From a virus: DNA of 22,919 bases. The stretch lies in the IMG/VR virus record IMGVR_UViG_3300034110_000948, positions 1 through 22,919 of that record. The stretch is one strand, 5' to 3'. Every line of letters begins with the position of its first letter. Position 1 is the first letter of the stretch. A program made the position numbers and the translations under genes. Positions 16,489 through 22,303 of this stretch are shown here, piece after piece. A model generated the notes under the pieces. The model was not told the origin of the DNA. It saw only the letters and a list, made by a program, of their open reading frames with translations, and ran no database searches.

Positions 16489-16509
16489 AAACCGCCACTT
16501 GGGCGGTTT
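16489..16509 (-). terminator. Intrinsic terminator after Septu genes
   Basis: Minus-strand stem AAACCGCC / GGCGGTTT with a 5-nt loop. The plus side is followed by TTTCTTT and the minus side by TCTTAT, so it is stronger as a plus-strand terminator. It separates ptuB from the downstream chaperone-like gene. Confidence 0.6.
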
Positions 16510-16523
16510 TTTCTTTAATTAAC

Positions 16524-17252
16524 TTAACTTCTTAAGGGTAAAACTAACTCTAAAGACTGGTTGTGGAGCTCTTCCAGTTCATTTGTCCATAATTTTTCGT
16601 CAATGAAACGCTTTTTCAATATCCCGTAAACTTCCGCATTATGGATAATAGTTGCAACAAAAGCCGCATATGGTCGATCTGATTGAGCTGCTTTCAAGAC
16701 AGCTTTAAATCTATTTCTCTTCCATCCATCAAGTTTCTCTAGATCTGAAAATTCCCTGTTCATCTGTACTAGAGAATTTTTTGCAGCCCCTGCAACTCTA
16801 CACCGCTTAACAAATAAATCTTCTTCATTAAGATCCAGAAGAGTTTCAGTATTTTCACCAATTTCAGTTATGCCAAAAATACTAAAGTGATCAAAACAGA
16901 ATTCTTTGCGTGGATCAGTTTCATAGGGATTTATGATCGGCCTTATTGAAATATCATCATCGTTTTTAGTTCCATTACATCTTTTACATGAAGGTAAAAG
17001 ATTATCCCATTCTACTACCAAATCTGGATACAGAGATTTTGGATGAAAGTGCTCAACTTCCATATAGGTACTAGGATCTGTTAAATCTGTTTCACAGTAA
17101 GCACATTTATGAGATGAGCTTTCCGAAAGAGGGTCCTTGATCTGTTTTTTATTCCAGACAGATTTTTCAGTAGCTACATACTCTTTAGTTAGTTGCTCTA
17201 CCTTATCTTCTGTTAAATATTCGGGCTTTTCGCCTCTTTGTAGCTTGATCAT
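16524..17252 (-). CDS. ptuB: Septu-type HNH endonuclease PtuB
   Basis: A 242-residue HNH nuclease. The core has CAYC (50-53), then MEVEHFHPKS (E67, H68, H70), WDNLLPSCKRCNGTKND (N84, C89, C92). This is the zinc-HNH layout of the TIGR02646-type nucleases paired with AAA ATPases in Septu and in retron Ec78. The C-terminal half is helical. The start is 3 bases after the PtuA stop, with GGAGAG inside the end of ptuA, so the two are coupled. Septu acts against phage, with PtuB as nuclease effector in complex with PtuA. No reverse transcriptase is present, so it is not a retron form. All visible catalytic positions are intact. Confidence 0.82.
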   Translation of the reverse strand: MIKLQRGEKPEYLTEDKVEQLTKEYVATEKSVWNKKQIKDPLSESSSHKCAYCETDLTDPSTYMEVEHFHPKSLYPDLVVEWDNLLPSCKRCNGTKNDDDISIRPIINPYETDPRKEFCFDHFSIFGITEIGENTETLLDLNEEDLFVKRCRVAGAAKNSLVQMNREFSDLEKLDGWKRNRFKAVLKAAQSDRPYAAFVATIIHNAEVYGILKKRFIDEKLWTNELEELHNQSLELVLPLRS

Positions 17253-17255
17253 GGA

Positions 17256-18416
17256 TTACTCTCCAAGACTATCAAGCTGCATTTGATAAATTGCTTTTAA
17301 TTCGCTGTGTGGATGAAGCATTCTCTTAAGCTTGTCAAAGGCTCCCCTTGCTCTTAGTTGATCTTGCTGTTTGAAAGCGTCCATGAACTCATTACGGATA
17401 GCTTCATATTCATTTGTGCGGAGATCTGTCATCCCCATCACATCTTTTAAAACCTCTTCAATGGTCCATCCCTGATAACCGTACTCAGAGGTAGGCAACT
17501 CACGACGAATAACTTCGCCATCTTTCCGCTCTAACGCGATTACTTCGCCCTGACGAGCTGTTTGAACTACATGAGGACTATGAGTTGTAATGAAGAATTG
17601 GGCTTTCGGGAATACTTCTTTTAATGCACCACAGACCCGCCCTTGCCATTCAGGATGAAGGTGTAACTCAATTTCATCAATAAGAATAATGCCTTCATAG
17701 TCTTCAGCTGCAATTTTATCCTTGAATCGAAGATCAAGTTCCTTAATGATTCCAAGTAAGATAAACAATGTAGATTTGAAGCCCGATGAAAGAAGCTCAA
17801 AATGTATCTCACCTCCATTGCTAGTTGGAGATTTTACATAGACTTCGAAGTCCGTTGCCACACTAGAAAAGCTATATTCAGGATTGAGAATACTAAAACA
17901 TTTAGTTGCTAAATCAGCATTTTGTTTCTGTGTTTTAGTCAAATTATCTTTCGCAAATCCTTTTCTAATTACTAACCAGTTTTTTAAATCCTCATTAGTT
18001 ACACCAGCAGTATTGTTTCTTGCAGCTTCTAAGGCATCTTTATCAACACTAATATTGCGTTCCTTTTTATATTTAAATACCCTATTGACTTGCAAATATA
18101 ATAATCTATCTACGATCCCATCACTCAGCTGATCAATGTAGCGTTCAATTGGTCCATATTGCTCAATCGCACGATTAATACGTTCAAAGTTCTGAAAATT
18201 TGTCTCAATAGCAATATGACCATTGTCAGCTCCCTTTCTCAGCGAAATAGAATTCCTATTTATTGCTGAAAACATATAGGCTATTGAATCTAGAATATTT
18301 GTCTTACCCACCCCATTTTCACCACAAATAATATTCATCTGTGGATTAATATCTTCTAATTTTAGATAGGGAATTCCACCTACATCTTTTAATTCCAATG
18401 ATGTAACTTTCATTGT
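17256..18416 (-). CDS. ptuA: Septu-type ATPase PtuA
   Basis: A 386-residue ABC-type ATPase of the AAA_21/SMC-like class. It has Walker A GENGVGKT (31-38), an ABC signature LLSSGFKS (about 207-214), Walker B IILIDEIEL (about 242-250) with HLHP following, and the switch TTHSP (about 276-280). It forms an operon with the HNH nuclease, the defining Septu pair. The start at 18416 (MKVTSLELKDVGG) is chosen because family proteins begin so and a candidate promoter lies just upstream. A longer in-frame start at 18494 would add 26 residues of low-complexity type. Both starts lack a strong ribosome site. It is separated from the antirepressor operon by a terminator. Confidence 0.83.
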   Translation of the reverse strand, partial: TMKVTSLELKDVGGIPYLKLEDINPQMNIICGENGVGKTNILDSIAYMFSAINRNSISLRKGADNGHIAIETNFQNFERINRAIEQYGPIERYIDQLSDGIVDRLLYLQVNRVFKYKKERNISVDKDALEAARNNTAGVTNEDLKNWLVIRKGFAKDNLTKTQKQNADLATKCFSILNPEYSFSSVATDFEVYVKSPTSNGGEIHFELLSSGFKSTLFILLGIIKELDLRFKDKIAAEDYEGIILIDEIELHLHPEWQGRVCGALKEVFPKAQFFITTHSPHVVQTARQGEVIALERKDGEVIRRELPTSEYGYQGWTIEEVLKDVMGMTDLRTNEYEAIRNEFMDAFKQQDQLRARGAFDKLKRMLHPHSELKAIYQMQLDSLGE

Positions 18417-18444
18417 TTCTAAGCCATTGTTGTTAGATGGATTC

Positions 18445-18472
18445 ATCATACATTCAATAGAAATTTTTCCAA
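18445..18472 (-). promoter_or_regulatory. Candidate promoter for the Septu genes
   Basis: Minus-strand TTGGAA (18467-18472), 16-base spacer, TATGAT (18445-18450). Transcription from here would start just before the 18416 ATG and exclude the upstream start. With a terminator immediately upstream, this would give the defence pair independent expression in the lysogen. Sequence match only. Confidence 0.45.
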
Positions 18473-18507
18473 GATTACTTTTTTGAGGCTTCATGAATTT
18501 TTTCCAA

Positions 18508-18533
18508 TAAAAAACCCACTCAAATGAGTGGGT
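18508..18533 (-). terminator. Intrinsic terminator after the antirepressor operon
   Basis: Minus-strand stem ACCCACTCA / TGAGTGGGT (loop TT), followed by six T and ATTGG. It ends the four-gene operon before the Septu genes. Confidence 0.82.
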
Positions 18534-18551
18534 CTGTAGGTGTTTTTTAAT

Positions 18552-18878
18552 TTACTTAATCACTAAGACTATCGCCACAATGACTAAAATAGCTGTTAGT
18601 AGATAGCAATTAGTTCGCCACATTAGAATGGTTTTAGTACCTCGCTTTATTAAAGCATCGTACTCCCGCATTTTATCCATTGCGCGAGCCATCGCTGCAT
18701 CACCTCTTTGCAGGAGAGTGATCATTTCCAGTTTCTCCTGCTCCAAGATTCGTCTTTCCTTGGCATGCAGGAGAATCATTTCATGATCTGCCAGAATTCG
18801 ATATTTAATATCCTCCAGCAACTCATCACGGCTCATGCTTAGAATATCTTCGCTTAACTCAAAATCTAGATCATTCAT
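18552..18878 (-). CDS. Coiled-coil protein with C-terminal membrane anchor (108 aa)
   Basis: A 108-residue protein. The first ~85 residues are acidic-to-mixed helix with coiled-coil character (LLHAKERRILEQEKLEMI). Residues about 88-107 are one strongly hydrophobic segment (TAILVIVAIVLVIK), giving a tail-anchored layout. The ATG overlaps the antirepressor stop as ATGA, so it is the last gene of the coupled operon. Possible roles are superinfection exclusion or a membrane partner. No family is recognised. Confidence 0.7.
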   Translation of the reverse strand: MNDLDFELSEDILSMSRDELLEDIKYRILADHEMILLHAKERRILEQEKLEMITLLQRGDAAMARAMDKMREYDALIKRGTKTILMWRTNCYLLTAILVIVAIVLVIK

Positions 18879-19657
18879 GCTGTGCCGCCTTGATCTTTAG
18901 CTAACTTTGCCAGACCTTTAGGCGTAATGCGTACCTGCTCAGTAATTTTGGTTGTACCATCACCTCGCGTCACCTCAGTTATCTTATGTTCCAGATAACC
19001 AGCTTGTACTTTATCCTGATAACCCAACCAATGAGAGTTACCTGCTCGCTTGTAAATCCATTTACCGGATGAAAGCTTGGCAATTAGATCTTTCGGGCGC
19101 ATTTGCAGGGCTTTAGCTGCATCAGTTAGACATAGACTTCCATCGGCTTTGGCAATTCGATCATAGGCTTCTACTGAAGGCTTCATTTCCTGAACTTCTT
19201 CCTCTAAACCCACAATCCTTTCGGAGTAACCTAGAAGCAAATCTCTCAAAACGCGCGGATCAGCTAAAGACTTCATTGGGTCAAAGTTCTGGATAAGCTC
19301 TTTGGTTTTGAAATAACCTTTGATTAATTGCTTCTGAACTTTCCAAGCTAGGTCATCAGTAAATGACTTAACTAGCATCAAGTAACCTGATTCAGTTAAA
19401 AGCTTTACATCACCATGACTTTTATCCGAGATAGAGCATATTTTGTGCGTCCGAATTTCGGACGAGCTAACCTCGAAATAATCTTCACCATCAACAAAAT
19501 GCTCCTTATTATCGTTGAAACGTTTTCGAGCTGTGCCTTCTGGACGACCATGAACTTCATCAACCATTGCGAAAGTTACAACACGCTGACCTTGGTACTC
19601 AACAATATCTAAAACTTTGTCAGCAACAGTCACGCTGTTATTTAATTTTGCATTCAT
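18875..19657 (-). CDS. ant: Phage antirepressor (ORF6N + KilAC)
   Basis: A 260-residue antirepressor. The N-terminal ~75 residues form an ORF6N-type domain (EYQGQRVVTFAMVDEVHGRP, then FNDNKEHFVDGEDYFEV). A helical linker follows, then the C-terminal KilAC/ANT domain from about 155: PSVEAYDRIAKADGSLCLTD, KALQMRPKDLIAKLSSGKWI, and ITPKGLAKLAKDQGG. Proteins of this type free phage from repression by binding the main repressor or a relative. It is the third gene of an ATGA-coupled operon headed by a small RHH protein. That order mirrors arc-ant of P22. Confidence 0.9.
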   Translation of the reverse strand: MNAKLNNSVTVADKVLDIVEYQGQRVVTFAMVDEVHGRPEGTARKRFNDNKEHFVDGEDYFEVSSSEIRTHKICSISDKSHGDVKLLTESGYLMLVKSFTDDLAWKVQKQLIKGYFKTKELIQNFDPMKSLADPRVLRDLLLGYSERIVGLEEEVQEMKPSVEAYDRIAKADGSLCLTDAAKALQMRPKDLIAKLSSGKWIYKRAGNSHWLGYQDKVQAGYLEHKITEVTRGDGTTKITEQVRITPKGLAKLAKDQGGTA

Positions 19658-20025
19658 GCTACTGACTCCTTTAAAACCAACTTCGCTGCTTTCGGTGAGT
19701 GTTGCTTAAAATACTCAACCTCTTCATTGCATGCAGTTGCCCAGTCATCCAACTTGTCCCAGGTTATAGATGCCAGTGTGTAAGCCGTAGTGTGCTTTTC
19801 AGACTTTTCCATAATTAAGCGAACTAGTGTTTCTAGCGCGCTAAAGCCTTCTTCCGCATTGTTAATAAAATCAACAAAGCGCTCTAATTGGTGTTCACTG
19901 ATCTGAACTTGATTCGCTTCAGTGATATGAGTTATATTTGACATAGTTACATTTCCTATTGTGACCACACTAAAGCTCCGGATCCGGCAAGATTGAGGGG
20001 CTTTTTTGTTGTCTGTTGATTTCAT
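19654..20025 (-). CDS. Antirepressor-operon protein of unknown function (123 aa)
   Basis: A 123-residue protein, mostly helical and acidic after residue 28 (SNITHITEANQVQISEHQLE; later EEVEYFKQHSPKAAKLVL). The start at 20025 overlaps the upstream RHH stop as ATGA, the same coupling seen at every other junction in this operon. A second start at 19944 has its own AGGAAATGTAACT and would give 96 residues; both products may be made. The N-terminal 27 residues are basic. A perfect CCGGATCCGG palindrome lies in the overlap part of the gene. No family is recognised. Confidence 0.65.
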   Translation of the reverse strand: MKSTDNKKAPQSCRIRSFSVVTIGNVTMSNITHITEANQVQISEHQLERFVDFINNAEEGFSALETLVRLIMEKSEKHTTAYTLASITWDKLDDWATACNEEVEYFKQHSPKAAKLVLKESVA

Positions 20026-20177
20026 GCTTTCGCACTCTTGCGTTTTTCTACTAGCAACTTAGCTGCCTCATTCATCAGATAAACCATTGATCTTTTATCT
20101 TCTTTTGCAATTGCTTTGAGTTCCTTGTGTAAGTCGCTATCAAGACGACCTTTAAAGTAAACAAACTCTTCTTTCAT
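20022..20177 (-). CDS. Small ribbon-helix-helix regulator (Arc-like, 51 aa)
   Basis: A 51-residue protein read as MKEEFVYFKGRLDSDLHKEL with a second helix KEDKRSMVYLMNEAAKLLVE. This is the ribbon-helix-helix plan of Arc/CopG proteins: a short basic or aromatic strand, then two helices. A strong ribosome site AAGGAGGAAGTA precedes the ATG. It heads the antirepressor operon and sits under the strong minus promoter next to three operator palindromes, so self-repression and control of ant, as Arc does in P22, is the natural inference. Confidence 0.78.
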   Translation of the reverse strand: MKEEFVYFKGRLDSDLHKELKAIAKEDKRSMVYLMNEAAKLLVEKRKSAKA

Positions 20178-20192
20178 TACTTCCTCCTTAGT

Positions 20193-20257
20193 CCCCAATC
20201 TGGGGTGTTAAATCATAGTACCCATTCTGGGGCTATTGGTCAAGCCCCAAAATGGGG
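20193..20257. promoter_or_regulatory. Three operator palindromes CCCCA-N3-TGGGG
   Basis: Perfect or near-perfect palindromes at 20193-20205 (CCCCAATCTGGGG), 20220-20232 (one mismatch, ACCCATTCTGGGG) and 20245-20257 (CCCCAAAATGGGG). Their centres are 27 and 25 bases apart. The second lies in the spacer of the minus promoter and the third in the spacer of the plus promoter; the first lies just downstream of the minus start. They are the likely sites of one or both RHH proteins encoded on either side. Confidence 0.85.
20215..20243 (-). promoter_or_regulatory. Promoter of the antirepressor operon
   Basis: Minus-strand TTGACC (20238-20243), 17-base spacer, TACTAT (20215-20220), close to the sigma-70 consensus. 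The spacer contains the middle operator, so bound RHH protein would block RNA polymerase. Confidence 0.75.
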
Positions 20258-20264
20258 TTATTAT
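20236..20264 (+). promoter_or_regulatory. Divergent promoter of the plus-strand RHH gene
   Basis: TTGGTC (20236-20241), 17-base spacer, TATTAT (20259-20264). Its -35 box overlaps that of the minus promoter, so the two compete for polymerase. The spacer contains the third operator. The leader would be about 18 bases with no clear ribosome site. Confidence 0.65.
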
Positions 20265-20288
20265 TAATTTTATTTTGGCGAATATTTC

Positions 20289-20759
20289 ATGAGTGAAGAT
20301 CAAAGCAATATCGTTACCCTTAAAGTTCGTGTAACACCTGAATTTCGTGAAAAAATTGTTGAAACAGCTAAAACAAATAATCGCTCCATGAATCAAGAAA
20401 TTGTAGCTCGATTAGAGGAATCTTTTGATAACAAGGATATAGGGCAAGAATTTTTTCAAAAAAACCTACATCTTTTCCTTTCTGCTTACTGTGCTGGTCT
20501 TGAAAGTAATTACGATGATGCGATATCTCAATTGGAAGAATCTCTTTCACAAACAAAAAATCCCGAGATGATTCAATTTCTTGAGCATCGACTTCAAGTA
20601 AATAAAATATTAAAAACAGAAATGCACAGACTGATGAAAAATAATTCGGAAAAGTTCAGTGCTGAATTATCTAAAGAGGTTTCTCAGAAACACCTTACCC
20701 ATCCACATCTAGCCAAAGATAAGCCACTCACTCCAATCAAGGACGAAGATATCGGGTAA
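20289..20759 (+). CDS. Arc/Mnt-type ribbon-helix-helix repressor (156 aa)
   Basis: The only plus-strand gene. The first ~50 residues are a classical Arc-family domain: VTLKVRVTPEFREKIVETAK then NNRSMNQEIVARLEESF. The remaining ~105 residues are helical, probably for oligomerisation as in Mnt, ending in a basic to acidic tail. It is longer than Mnt (83 residues). It faces the small RHH and antirepressor operon across shared operators, as mnt faces arc-ant in P22, so maintenance of lysogeny by repressing ant is the likely role. Its transcript would continue into the structured RNA up to the terminator at 21097-21119. Confidence 0.85.
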   Translation: MSEDQSNIVTLKVRVTPEFREKIVETAKTNNRSMNQEIVARLEESFDNKDIGQEFFQKNLHLFLSAYCAGLESNYDDAISQLEESLSQTKNPEMIQFLEHRLQVNKILKTEMHRLMKNNSEKFSAELSKEVSQKHLTHPHLAKDKPLTPIKDEDIG

Positions 20760-20770
20760 TACCTGAAGAG

Positions 20771-20970
20771 GTTTCCGAGACCCTCAATCTGAGCGTCTCG
20801 AAAGCTGCACCGATAACATCGGTTCAGTTTAAGACTGACTGACTTTCAGGTAGTCAGTCCAAAATTCGGGCTTTTGAGCTATCCCGAAGTGGATATCTCA
20901 AAAGCATCACCGATAAGATCGGGTATGTTTGTAACTGACCCTCTCTGAGATGGTTAGTCCAAATGCTTAA
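20771..20970 (+). repeat. Two 100-bp tandem repeats
   Basis: The blocks 20771-20870 and 20871-20970 align with exact 100-base offset at CACCGATAA-ATCGG, at AACTGAC-type stems and at TTAGTCCAAA/GTCAGTCCAAA. Identity is partial, highest in the short-hairpin core. Confidence 0.7.
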
Positions 20971-21072
20971 AAATATCTTATCGCTTCGTAAATTCCCGAA
21001 ACGATAAAACCTTTTCTCCTTAAATTAAGGAAAAGCTAATGAGGATTTTTCTTGCTATTGGGAATTTTCCCA
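20771..21072 (+). ncRNA. Structured RNA with tandem three-hairpin units
   Basis: This 350-base stretch (20760-21110) has no good reading frame and instead holds a chain of hairpins. Unit A: long hairpin 20771-20805, short hairpin 20809-20823 (ACCGAT/ATCGGT), hairpin 20833-20859 (GACTGACT/AGTCAGTC). Unit B, 100 bases on: 20870-20905 (14 pairs), 20910-20922, 20934-20958. Then a third, more different set: 20978-21007, 21011-21035 and 21059-21072. Stems keep pairing while the sequence changes (T840-A852 becomes C940-G952; G837-C855 becomes a G-U). It lies between a repressor gene and a bidirectional terminator. Strand is inferred from the upstream gene. Confidence 0.6.
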
Positions 21073-21365: not shown

Positions 21366-22091
21366 TTACTTTATATAAAATTCTTTTTTCTGCCTAATAT
21401 AGGCAGCAAATTTGGTATTGACCTCAAAAACAATCTGATTGGCGCGCATTGACTCTATTTTCAACTCATCACATGCTATTGTTAGGTATTTCTGAGGATC
21501 ATCTTGGATTTTACTACAAGCAATCTCAAGCCCCCTAAATACCTCTTTGAAACTATAATGATTGTCTGCAGCGTGCCAAGTTTCATCTGATATTTCACCC
21601 CAATTTTCAAACATTGTTAGCAGATCAAATATATCTTTATAAGGCCTGTCATTATATCGATCTGCATTTGCTAGAATTTTTGTTAAGTAACATGATTGAT
21701 GATCGATAGAGGGAACTTCAAATTGATTTATCTCGTCTTTTTTGATCTCATAATTAGCAAAAGATACAAATTCCAACTTAATAGGCACGCCTTCCATTTG
21801 AATAAAGCAGCGCGTGCCATCTCGATCAAGTCGAATTTCTCGAAGATACTCAAATTCACTTTTTACAATATTACCCAAGCTATTGGGAGTTACTACTGCC
21901 CGAACTGCTCGGTAAGACTCTTTATCCGGGCAAAGAAAATCGATGTCTATAGATTCACGGTATTCGTCTAATTCAAGAGCAATCCTAGTACCTCCACCAA
22001 ATAATATTCGATGTTCATCTAAGTATTCAGAATTAAAATTCCTTAAGGCTTTTTGAATTAATTTATGATGAGGACGGGTAAATTCAAGCAT
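21366..22091 (-). CDS. AbiEii/AbiGii-family nucleotidyltransferase
   Basis: A 241-residue nucleotidyltransferase-fold protein. The signature GGGTRIALELDEYRESIDID (residues 32-51) has the Gly-Gly and the two Asp (49, 51) needed for metal and nucleotide binding. A later K-I-L-A...DRPYKDIFDLL segment also fits the family. AbiEii proteins act as toxins in abortive-infection and toxin-antitoxin systems, transferring nucleotides to RNA targets such as tRNA in known members. Here the usual larger AbiEi antitoxin is absent; a 68-residue gene lies 5 bases upstream instead. It ends in a terminator. Confidence 0.85.
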   Translation of the reverse strand: MLEFTRPHHKLIQKALRNFNSEYLDEHRILFGGGTRIALELDEYRESIDIDFLCPDKESYRAVRAVVTPNSLGNIVKSEFEYLREIRLDRDGTRCFIQMEGVPIKLEFVSFANYEIKKDEINQFEVPSIDHQSCYLTKILANADRYNDRPYKDIFDLLTMFENWGEISDETWHAADNHYSFKEVFRGLEIACSKIQDDPQKYLTIACDELKIESMRANQIVFEVNTKFAAYIRQKKEFYIK

Positions 22092-22096
22092 GAAAA

Positions 22097-22303
22097 TTAT
22101 GCTGCCAAAAATAATCCATGACCAATGATCTGAGTCAATCTATCGATCAGATTTCTTTCTTTGCCAGTTAGTTGTTGAGCATCAATATATTTCCATCTTT
22201 TTTCATAAAGATGAAAAGCTCTTTCAGCAGGAATTTGCTCAGCTGCAGTATCCCATAAAATATAATCTAAAGCAGGATACTCTTTTCTTGCAATTAGATT
22301 CAT
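22097..22303 (-). CDS. Small partner of the AbiEii nucleotidyltransferase (68 aa)
   Basis: A 68-residue protein: NLIARKEYPALDYILWDTAA, then FHLYEKRWKYIDAQQLTGKE, ending GHGLFLAA. The LWD...LYEKRWKYID pattern resembles short proteins often found before AbiEii-type nucleotidyltransferases, so an antitoxin or partner role is inferred. It has AGGTATAGCAT upstream of the ATG and a 5-base gap to the enzyme gene. The 189 bases upstream (22304-22492) are AT-rich and non-coding, with no clear promoter on the minus strand. Confidence 0.68.
   Translation of the reverse strand: MNLIARKEYPALDYILWDTAAEQIPAERAFHLYEKRWKYIDAQQLTGKERNLIDRLTQIIGHGLFLAA

Follow-up and report, generated by a model that had tools for sequence, protein, structure and literature searches.

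A probable immI-type secondary immunity switch with a predicted sar-like antisense RNA in a relative of Acinetobacter phages

The immI region of phage P22, the textbook example of secondary immunity, contains one of the early-described antisense RNAs. To our knowledge, what is known of immI comes essentially from P22-like phages that infect enteric bacteria. The DNA discussed here, termed the window, is an IMG/VR virus record of 22,919 bp whose named relatives are Acinetobacter phages or prophages. In this window, two genes for ribbon-helix-helix (RHH) proteins face each other beside an antirepressor gene, which raises the question of whether the locus is a switch of the immI kind and which of its parts would carry out the functions known from P22. 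Sequence comparison indicates that the locus is, with good probability, an immI-type secondary immunity switch that includes a predicted sar-like antisense RNA.

Layout of the locus and its antirepressor operon

The features of the locus are listed in Table 1. Both divergent RHH genes named in a preliminary description of this DNA are present, with the small protein matching phrog_3180 ("Arc-like repressor", 9e-17) and the large protein matching Pfam Arc. For the small gene, a 58-aa version with a TTG start from the list of open reading frames was considered less likely than the 51-aa ATG version. As proposed, the small RHH gene leads an operon that contains an antirepressor gene on the same strand, and the sole predicted terminator of this operon follows the antirepressor. 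The antirepressor is the third gene of this operon, because ORF96 intervenes after the small RHH gene. ORF96 is also found in three relatives (L098, L111, and L113), and the loop of the predicted antisense RNA is located opposite its ribosome site. The start of the antirepressor gene overlaps the stop region of ORF96, so that translational coupling of the two genes is possible.

Table 1. Coordinates of genes and predicted control features of the switch in the window
Feature	Position	Strand	Details
Predicted terminator, antirepressor operon	18512..18535	-	Terminator scan
108-aa ORF, operon end	18552..18878	-	No family match found
Antirepressor, ORF6N + ANT (KilAC)	18875..19657	-	Pfam ANT 1.3e-32, ORF6N 5.7e-18; phrog_4608 anti-repressor 1.2e-75
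ORF96, function unassigned	19654..19944	-	96 aa; between small RHH and antirepressor
Predicted sar-like promoter	19909..19938	+	TTGATT-18-TATATT; scan; -10 ends 3 nt before complement of ORF96 start codon
Predicted sar-like antisense RNA	19942..20007	+	5' hairpin 19946-19965; terminator hairpin ~19972-20004; T-run 20002-20007
Small RHH, putative repressor (Arc position)	20022..20177	-	51 aa from best ATG; first gene of antirepressor operon
Operator O1 (predicted)	20193-20205		CCCCA-ATC-TGGGG; just downstream of predicted leftward start
Predicted promoter, small RHH-antirepressor operon	20215..20243	-	TTGACC-17-TACTAT; promoter scan
Operator O2 (predicted)	20220-20232		aCCCA-TTC-TGGGG; leftward promoter spacer
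Predicted promoter, large RHH	20236..20264	+	TTGGTC-17-TATTAT; read from sequence
Operator O3 (predicted)	20245-20257		CCCCA-AAA-TGGGG; rightward promoter spacer
Large RHH, putative repressor (Mnt position)	20289..20759	+	156 aa; Pfam Arc 1.5e-9, over cut-off

The hexamers of the two divergent promoters are located where they had been described and overlap in their -35 boxes, with positions 20238-20241 common to both. For the rightward promoter, the scan returned the identical -10 box, combined with TGGTCA at a spacing of 16. The promoter scan by itself was rejected as evidence, with 15 promoters found in the window against 10.8 expected and individually unremarkable matches. The weight of the divergent promoters derives instead from their conservation, as the relatives L008-L010 keep both sets of hexamers and the TTGGTCAA core that is common to both -35 boxes.

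Gene for gene, this layout matches the annotated P22 genome, in which mnt faces arc-ant across the overlapping promoters Pant and Pmnt within the late operon. The immI-like layout put forward earlier is thus supported, with three amendments, of which the one on the operators is given below. The analogy holds for the RHH pair and the antirepressor, but the gene for a predicted sar-like antisense RNA, which completes it, had been overlooked. Furthermore, the case does not stand alone: about 80 such modules have been collected.

The surroundings of the switch contain several further elements. Short repeated hairpins, namely CCGATAAGATCGG and relatives, and GACTGACTGACTTTCAGGTAGTCAGTC, are found in the interval that follows the large RHH gene (20780-21010). 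Directly behind the antirepressor operon, a Septu-type defence pair is encoded at 16524-18494 (-), consisting of a PtuA ATPase (PADLOC 6e-143) and a PtuB HNH protein (6e-88). It looks like a recent insertion, as a near relative (L004) lacks exactly 16509-18550. An AbiEi/AbiEii-type gene pair lies beside the switch at 21366-22303 (-; PADLOC 3e-26 and 6e-79). L004 differs at the AbiE stretch as well, which suggests that genes are exchanged on either side of the module.

Operators and the two RHH proteins

Three palindromes of the form CCCCA-N3-TGGGG, described for both promoter spacers and one downstream site, are indeed present in the sequence between 20193 and 20257. Allowing 0-1 mismatches, the motif occurs three times in the 22.9-kb window and three times in a 52-kb relative, always at the switch and with no further copy elsewhere in either sequence, which argues against a chance occurrence. 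L008, L009, and L010 retain the three palindromes but vary in the letters of the palindrome spacers; the centres stand ~25 and ~27 bp apart. This constant spacing, together with the varying spacer letters and the retained TTGGTCAA core, constitutes a footprint of selection. The relatives therefore support the operators as real; they differ from those of P22, which has two different operators, whereas the intergenic region here contains one operator type in three copies, a type that follows the large RHH. No site there could be assigned to the small RHH as an operator of its own.

The triple palindrome alone was rejected as a marker of the switch, because similar patterns occur in 68 viral contig stretches, the majority of which lack an adjoining RHH pair and belong to other systems. 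In L014, L015, L018, L046, L057, L058, L059, L061, L063, and L069, a triple CCCCA-N3-TGGGG with shorter spacing stands beside unrelated non-RHH genes, several of which begin like MEQQIGNEVGRWLRRRDAWMRKLV; it may represent an operator or an iteron array. Another array, TACCCAAATTGGGTA / GCCCATTTTGGGT / TACCCAAGTTGGGTA with ~22-bp spacing, is conserved without an RHH neighbour in many other phage contigs (L011, L016, L017, L019, L023, L027, L030, L036, L041, L042, L047, L053, L062, L071, and L077).

In Arc, the base-contacting strand residues are Q9, N11, and R13. The large RHH protein has the strand VTLKVR, from which alignment to Arc yields the contact triad T-K-R, followed by a long helical tail. 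Its nearest solved structure is AmrZ (E 6.5e-5). The tail is 62% identical between the window and L005, despite the different RHH head in L005. The small RHH protein is 86-90% identical in L007-L010. It has no Pfam Arc match and a weak Antitox_RHH match below the cut-off, and a tblastn search with it alone gave no match among named phages.

A search based on the conserved linker yielded 51 distinct modules with an RHH pair, and 81 once genome loci were added. Module pairs that are alike in the large but unlike in the small RHH protein have a median intergenic 6-mer similarity of 0.48 (31 pairs). For pairs alike in the small but unlike in the large protein the median is 0.10 (27 pairs), compared with a baseline of 0.08 for pairs unlike in both. 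Partial correlations with operator similarity are 0.29 for the large and 0.10 for the small RHH, although this similarity could partly reflect linkage. In L007, the small RHH is 90% identical, the large RHH is different, and the palindromes read CCACA-N3-TGTGG. The half-sites correspond to the class of the large protein: the triad T-K-R goes with CCCCA in 11 of the 13 modules that have a perfect palindrome, I-R-R with CCACA in 7/7, and the VTVRLR class with CCTCA, again in 7/7. The small-RHH types Y-K-R and D-R-R, on the other hand, recur across the operator classes of the large RHH. The large RHH is hence likely to bind the three operators, as judged from the fact that the operator class follows the large protein and its triad while small-RHH types cross classes.

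Both RHH proteins might also use O1-O3, in which case the small one would be a competitor or a partner in mixed complexes, comparable to Cro, without an operator of its own. Such sharing would agree with the single operator type visible between the genes and with the Q-N-R and Q-K-R classes, in which mostly one triad is common to both proteins. In the class of the window, however, the triads differ (Y-K-R or D-R-R in the small protein against T-K-R in the large one), and the operators do not track the small RHH. Shared use is therefore regarded as unlikely, though it retains appreciable weight beside the preferred assignment of the operators to the large RHH.

Second immunity and the distribution of the module

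The suggestion of a second immunity circuit fits the locus, because a near relative has a separate CI-type repressor. This 52-kb relative is 93-96% identical over the module and encodes a 245-aa HTH_3+S24 (CI-type) protein ~27 kb away. An HTH_3+S24 protein is also present in five other phages bearing such modules. In the window itself, no gene for a repressor of the CI kind was noticed, and the evidence comes from these relatives. The situation matches P22, where immI is secondary to immC and is located within the late operon as a region named the "ant moron" (PMC2629481, PMC11016777).

A mechanism may be drawn from P22 and from the placement of the operators. In a lysogen, the large RHH would occupy the three operators and shut the leftward promoter, with O2 in its spacer and O1 at its start, and occupancy of O3 would limit the synthesis of the large RHH itself. 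After infection of a naive cell, the leftward promoter would yield the small RHH, ORF96, and the ORF6N/ANT antirepressor. The latter would disable CI-type repressors, so that lytic growth would be favoured. The small RHH, as the counterpart of Arc, might curb the antirepressor burst. The ~65-nt antisense RNA would cover the Shine-Dalgarno sequence and start codon of ORF96, as sar does on ant, and the burst would end. Since ORF96 and the antirepressor gene overlap, a block of ORF96 could repress the antirepressor by translational coupling.

Alternatively, the antirepressor could act mainly in trans on the repressors of other prophages, as a weapon or helper rather than as a regulator of its own lysogeny. 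The variety of cargo behind one control module would suit this role, as antirepressors with KilA-N, Bro-N, P22_AR_N, AntA, and ORF6N domains (five families) follow the element in relatives. The same applies to several genomes that carry at least two modules, in which the large-RHH classes differ wherever both are readable. Against this, the same phage type has a CI-type repressor of its own, P22 Ant targets the phage's own C2 repressor (PMC11016777), and with so few genomes, finding only different classes could be due to chance. The numbers are too small to conclude that modules sharing a genome avoid carrying the same class. Action mainly in trans is thus considered unlikely, and a role of the antirepressor in the phage's own immunity is preferred.

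An in-house RNA model of the antisense element found 48 places distributed over 32 of 149 Acinetobacter genomes; the weakest of these matches are plain terminators. Across 293 genomes of the order, it found only the Acinetobacter starting genome and four marginal plain terminators. Of 34 Acinetobacter loci that were retrieved, 24 have a small RHH gene directly adjoining the element, and in 23 of these a large RHH gene faces it. A variant layout occurs in L223, L224, L258, L262, and L263, where the RHH pair is located ~0.7 kb further upstream with another gene in between. In these loci and in L222, a variant sar-like element stands apart from the RHH pair, and the next gene begins with MNSM or similar; in L224 this gene belongs to phrog_34801. 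One genome carries two sar-like elements on opposite strands 4.4 kb apart (L206 and L257), possibly two switches in one prophage.

Identical variants of the terminator hairpin are found with different 5' hairpins. Judged from the sequences, the RHH pair, operators, RNA, and antirepressors are a shuffled kit of cassettes, because the same terminator occurs with other 5' hairpins and the same large-RHH tail with other heads. A more far-reaching proposal is a combinatorial kit for second immunity, composed of an RHH head with its operators, a tail, a small RHH, a sar-like RNA with variable loops, and an antirepressor, each combination with private specificity and with the linker as the recombination joint. 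This proposal is tentative and given somewhat less than an even chance. If true, each cassette would have specificity at the DNA level (operator) and at the RNA level (antisense loop), and several related prophages could co-reside without cross-silencing.

The predicted antisense element and comparison with known systems

The conserved linker, ~100 bp of DNA that follow the small RHH gene (19933-20034), retains ~80-86% identity even with phages in which the genes on both sides differ, and a 34-base pattern from the end of the element was found in 105 viral contig stretches. The predicted RNA consists of a 5' hairpin, whose loop UUUCCUAU is complementary to the Shine-Dalgarno sequence of ORF96 (anti-SD), and a terminator hairpin. 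From viral contigs and phage loci, 47 distinct elements of 58-77 nt were cut between the start codon of the following gene and the T-run. Their folding z scores against shuffles average -2.25 on the antisense strand versus -0.66 on the sense strand, with the antisense value lower in 41 of the 47, where the versions and their cargo starts are related to each other and thus constitute non-independent samples.

Compensatory changes were counted in a structure-fitted alignment of 69 distinct sequences, which leans towards the structure. Over the whole structure, 31 cells compare with 16.6 in shuffles (0/500), and nearly all of them lie in the 5' hairpin. On a MAFFT alignment, RNAalifold retained the terminator stem alone. 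The loss of the 5' hairpin, and hence the need for a structure-fitted alignment, is explained by rows with CATGTT and CATAGTT being out of register. Little can be read from covariation in the terminator stem, which belongs to a very common type and scarcely varies. In 35 distinct starts, the best promoter-like site within a fixed window before the start codon has a mean percentile of 0.93 relative to windows elsewhere in the same genes, a value that overstates independence because cargo start regions are partly related. In nearly all of these starts, the -10 box precedes the start codon by 9 nt, or by 15 nt where the antirepressor is of the P22 type.

The element is designated sar-like by its anatomy, as a predicted antisense RNA, with common descent left aside. 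The label was chosen because the anatomy is the same as that of sar, yet no model matches significantly in either direction. Direct homology to P22 sar was rejected: in the P22 genome, the in-house RNA model ranks sar second best, with a non-significant E of 0.35. Conversely, an Rfam scan of the window up to E = 5 returned neither sar (RF00262) nor C4, but only unrelated or leader/terminator matches. Neither family matched four relatives at the gathering score, while P22 sar itself scores 97.8 bits.

The hairpin on the antisense strand could also be a mere terminator that shields the facing repressor gene from stray transcription, which would leave the RHH pair and the antirepressor as the switch. 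The terminator stem is in fact the most conserved part and shows little covariation, such GC stems are common, and the four marginal matches outside Acinetobacter are plain terminators. This explanation nevertheless leaves aside the preceding second hairpin with its compensatory changes and anti-SD loop, and the constant offset kept by the -10 box across start codons unrelated to one another; moreover, P22 sar has exactly such a design. A terminator without regulatory RNA is accordingly judged improbable compared with a sar-like antisense RNA. Highly improbable is a toxin-antitoxin module with the small RHH as antitoxin, which the weak Antitox_RHH match would favour, as the small RHH stands in the arc position with a second RHH facing it, no toxin gene was found adjoining it (its neighbours being antirepressors or unassigned ORFs), and antirepressors of five families, but in the cases checked never a recognised toxin, follow in relatives.

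Among known systems, AmrZ and similar Arc-like RHH regulators resemble the large protein in their RHH domain, but the latter is phage-borne, is paired with a second RHH, and has another tail and operator. C4 RNA, known from phages P1 and P7, controls an antirepressor. It shares with the element the use of phage antisense RNA in immunity, as do the C4-like sRNAs of A. baumannii AB5075 (PMC5320573). C4 differs, however, in its ~77 nt, its three stems, and its processing by RNase P from a longer transcript, and the C4 family has no match here. The identification of the A. baumannii sRNAs with the RNAs described here was therefore dropped. The Acinetobacter Vieuvirus phages Ab105, Acba_1, and Ab11510-phi share the layout near tail genes and the conserved linker, whereas their RHH classes and operators are others and their antirepressor is of the AntA type. 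The annotation of their loci goes no further than DNA-binding, regulatory, antirepressor, or hypothetical genes.

The closest counterpart in design is P22 immI (mnt / arc-sar-ant). Both have a divergent RHH pair, overlapping promoters, a small RHH gene leading an antirepressor operon, and a placement inside the late or tail gene region. The predicted element agrees with sar in strand, in lying between the small RHH gene and the gene that follows, in its two hairpins (5' hairpin and terminator), in being antisense to the ribosome site of that following gene, and in the offset of the -10 box (P22: TATACT-ATT-CAT). Its length is 66 nt, compared with 68-70 nt for sar. In contrast to P22, three copies of one operator replace the separate Arc and Mnt operators, the antirepressor, encoded by the third gene of its operon, belongs to the ORF6N/ANT type, and there is an extra 96-aa ORF. 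The switch is of a known kind, and the Acinetobacter version is a variant without close sequence similarity to P22. No description of an Acinetobacter immI-type switch or sar-like RNA was found in the literature searched, most subscription papers lying outside it. The whole immI architecture, including the predicted antisense RNA, is present in dozens of shuffled Acinetobacter versions and constitutes a natural data set. It can be used to ask how RHH proteins choose their operators, by setting contact triads beside half-sites, and whether prophages residing in one cell are divided into immunity groups by their antisense loops. Testable names thereby become available, by comparison with immI of P22, for loci entered in phage records only as hypothetical or DNA-binding proteins.
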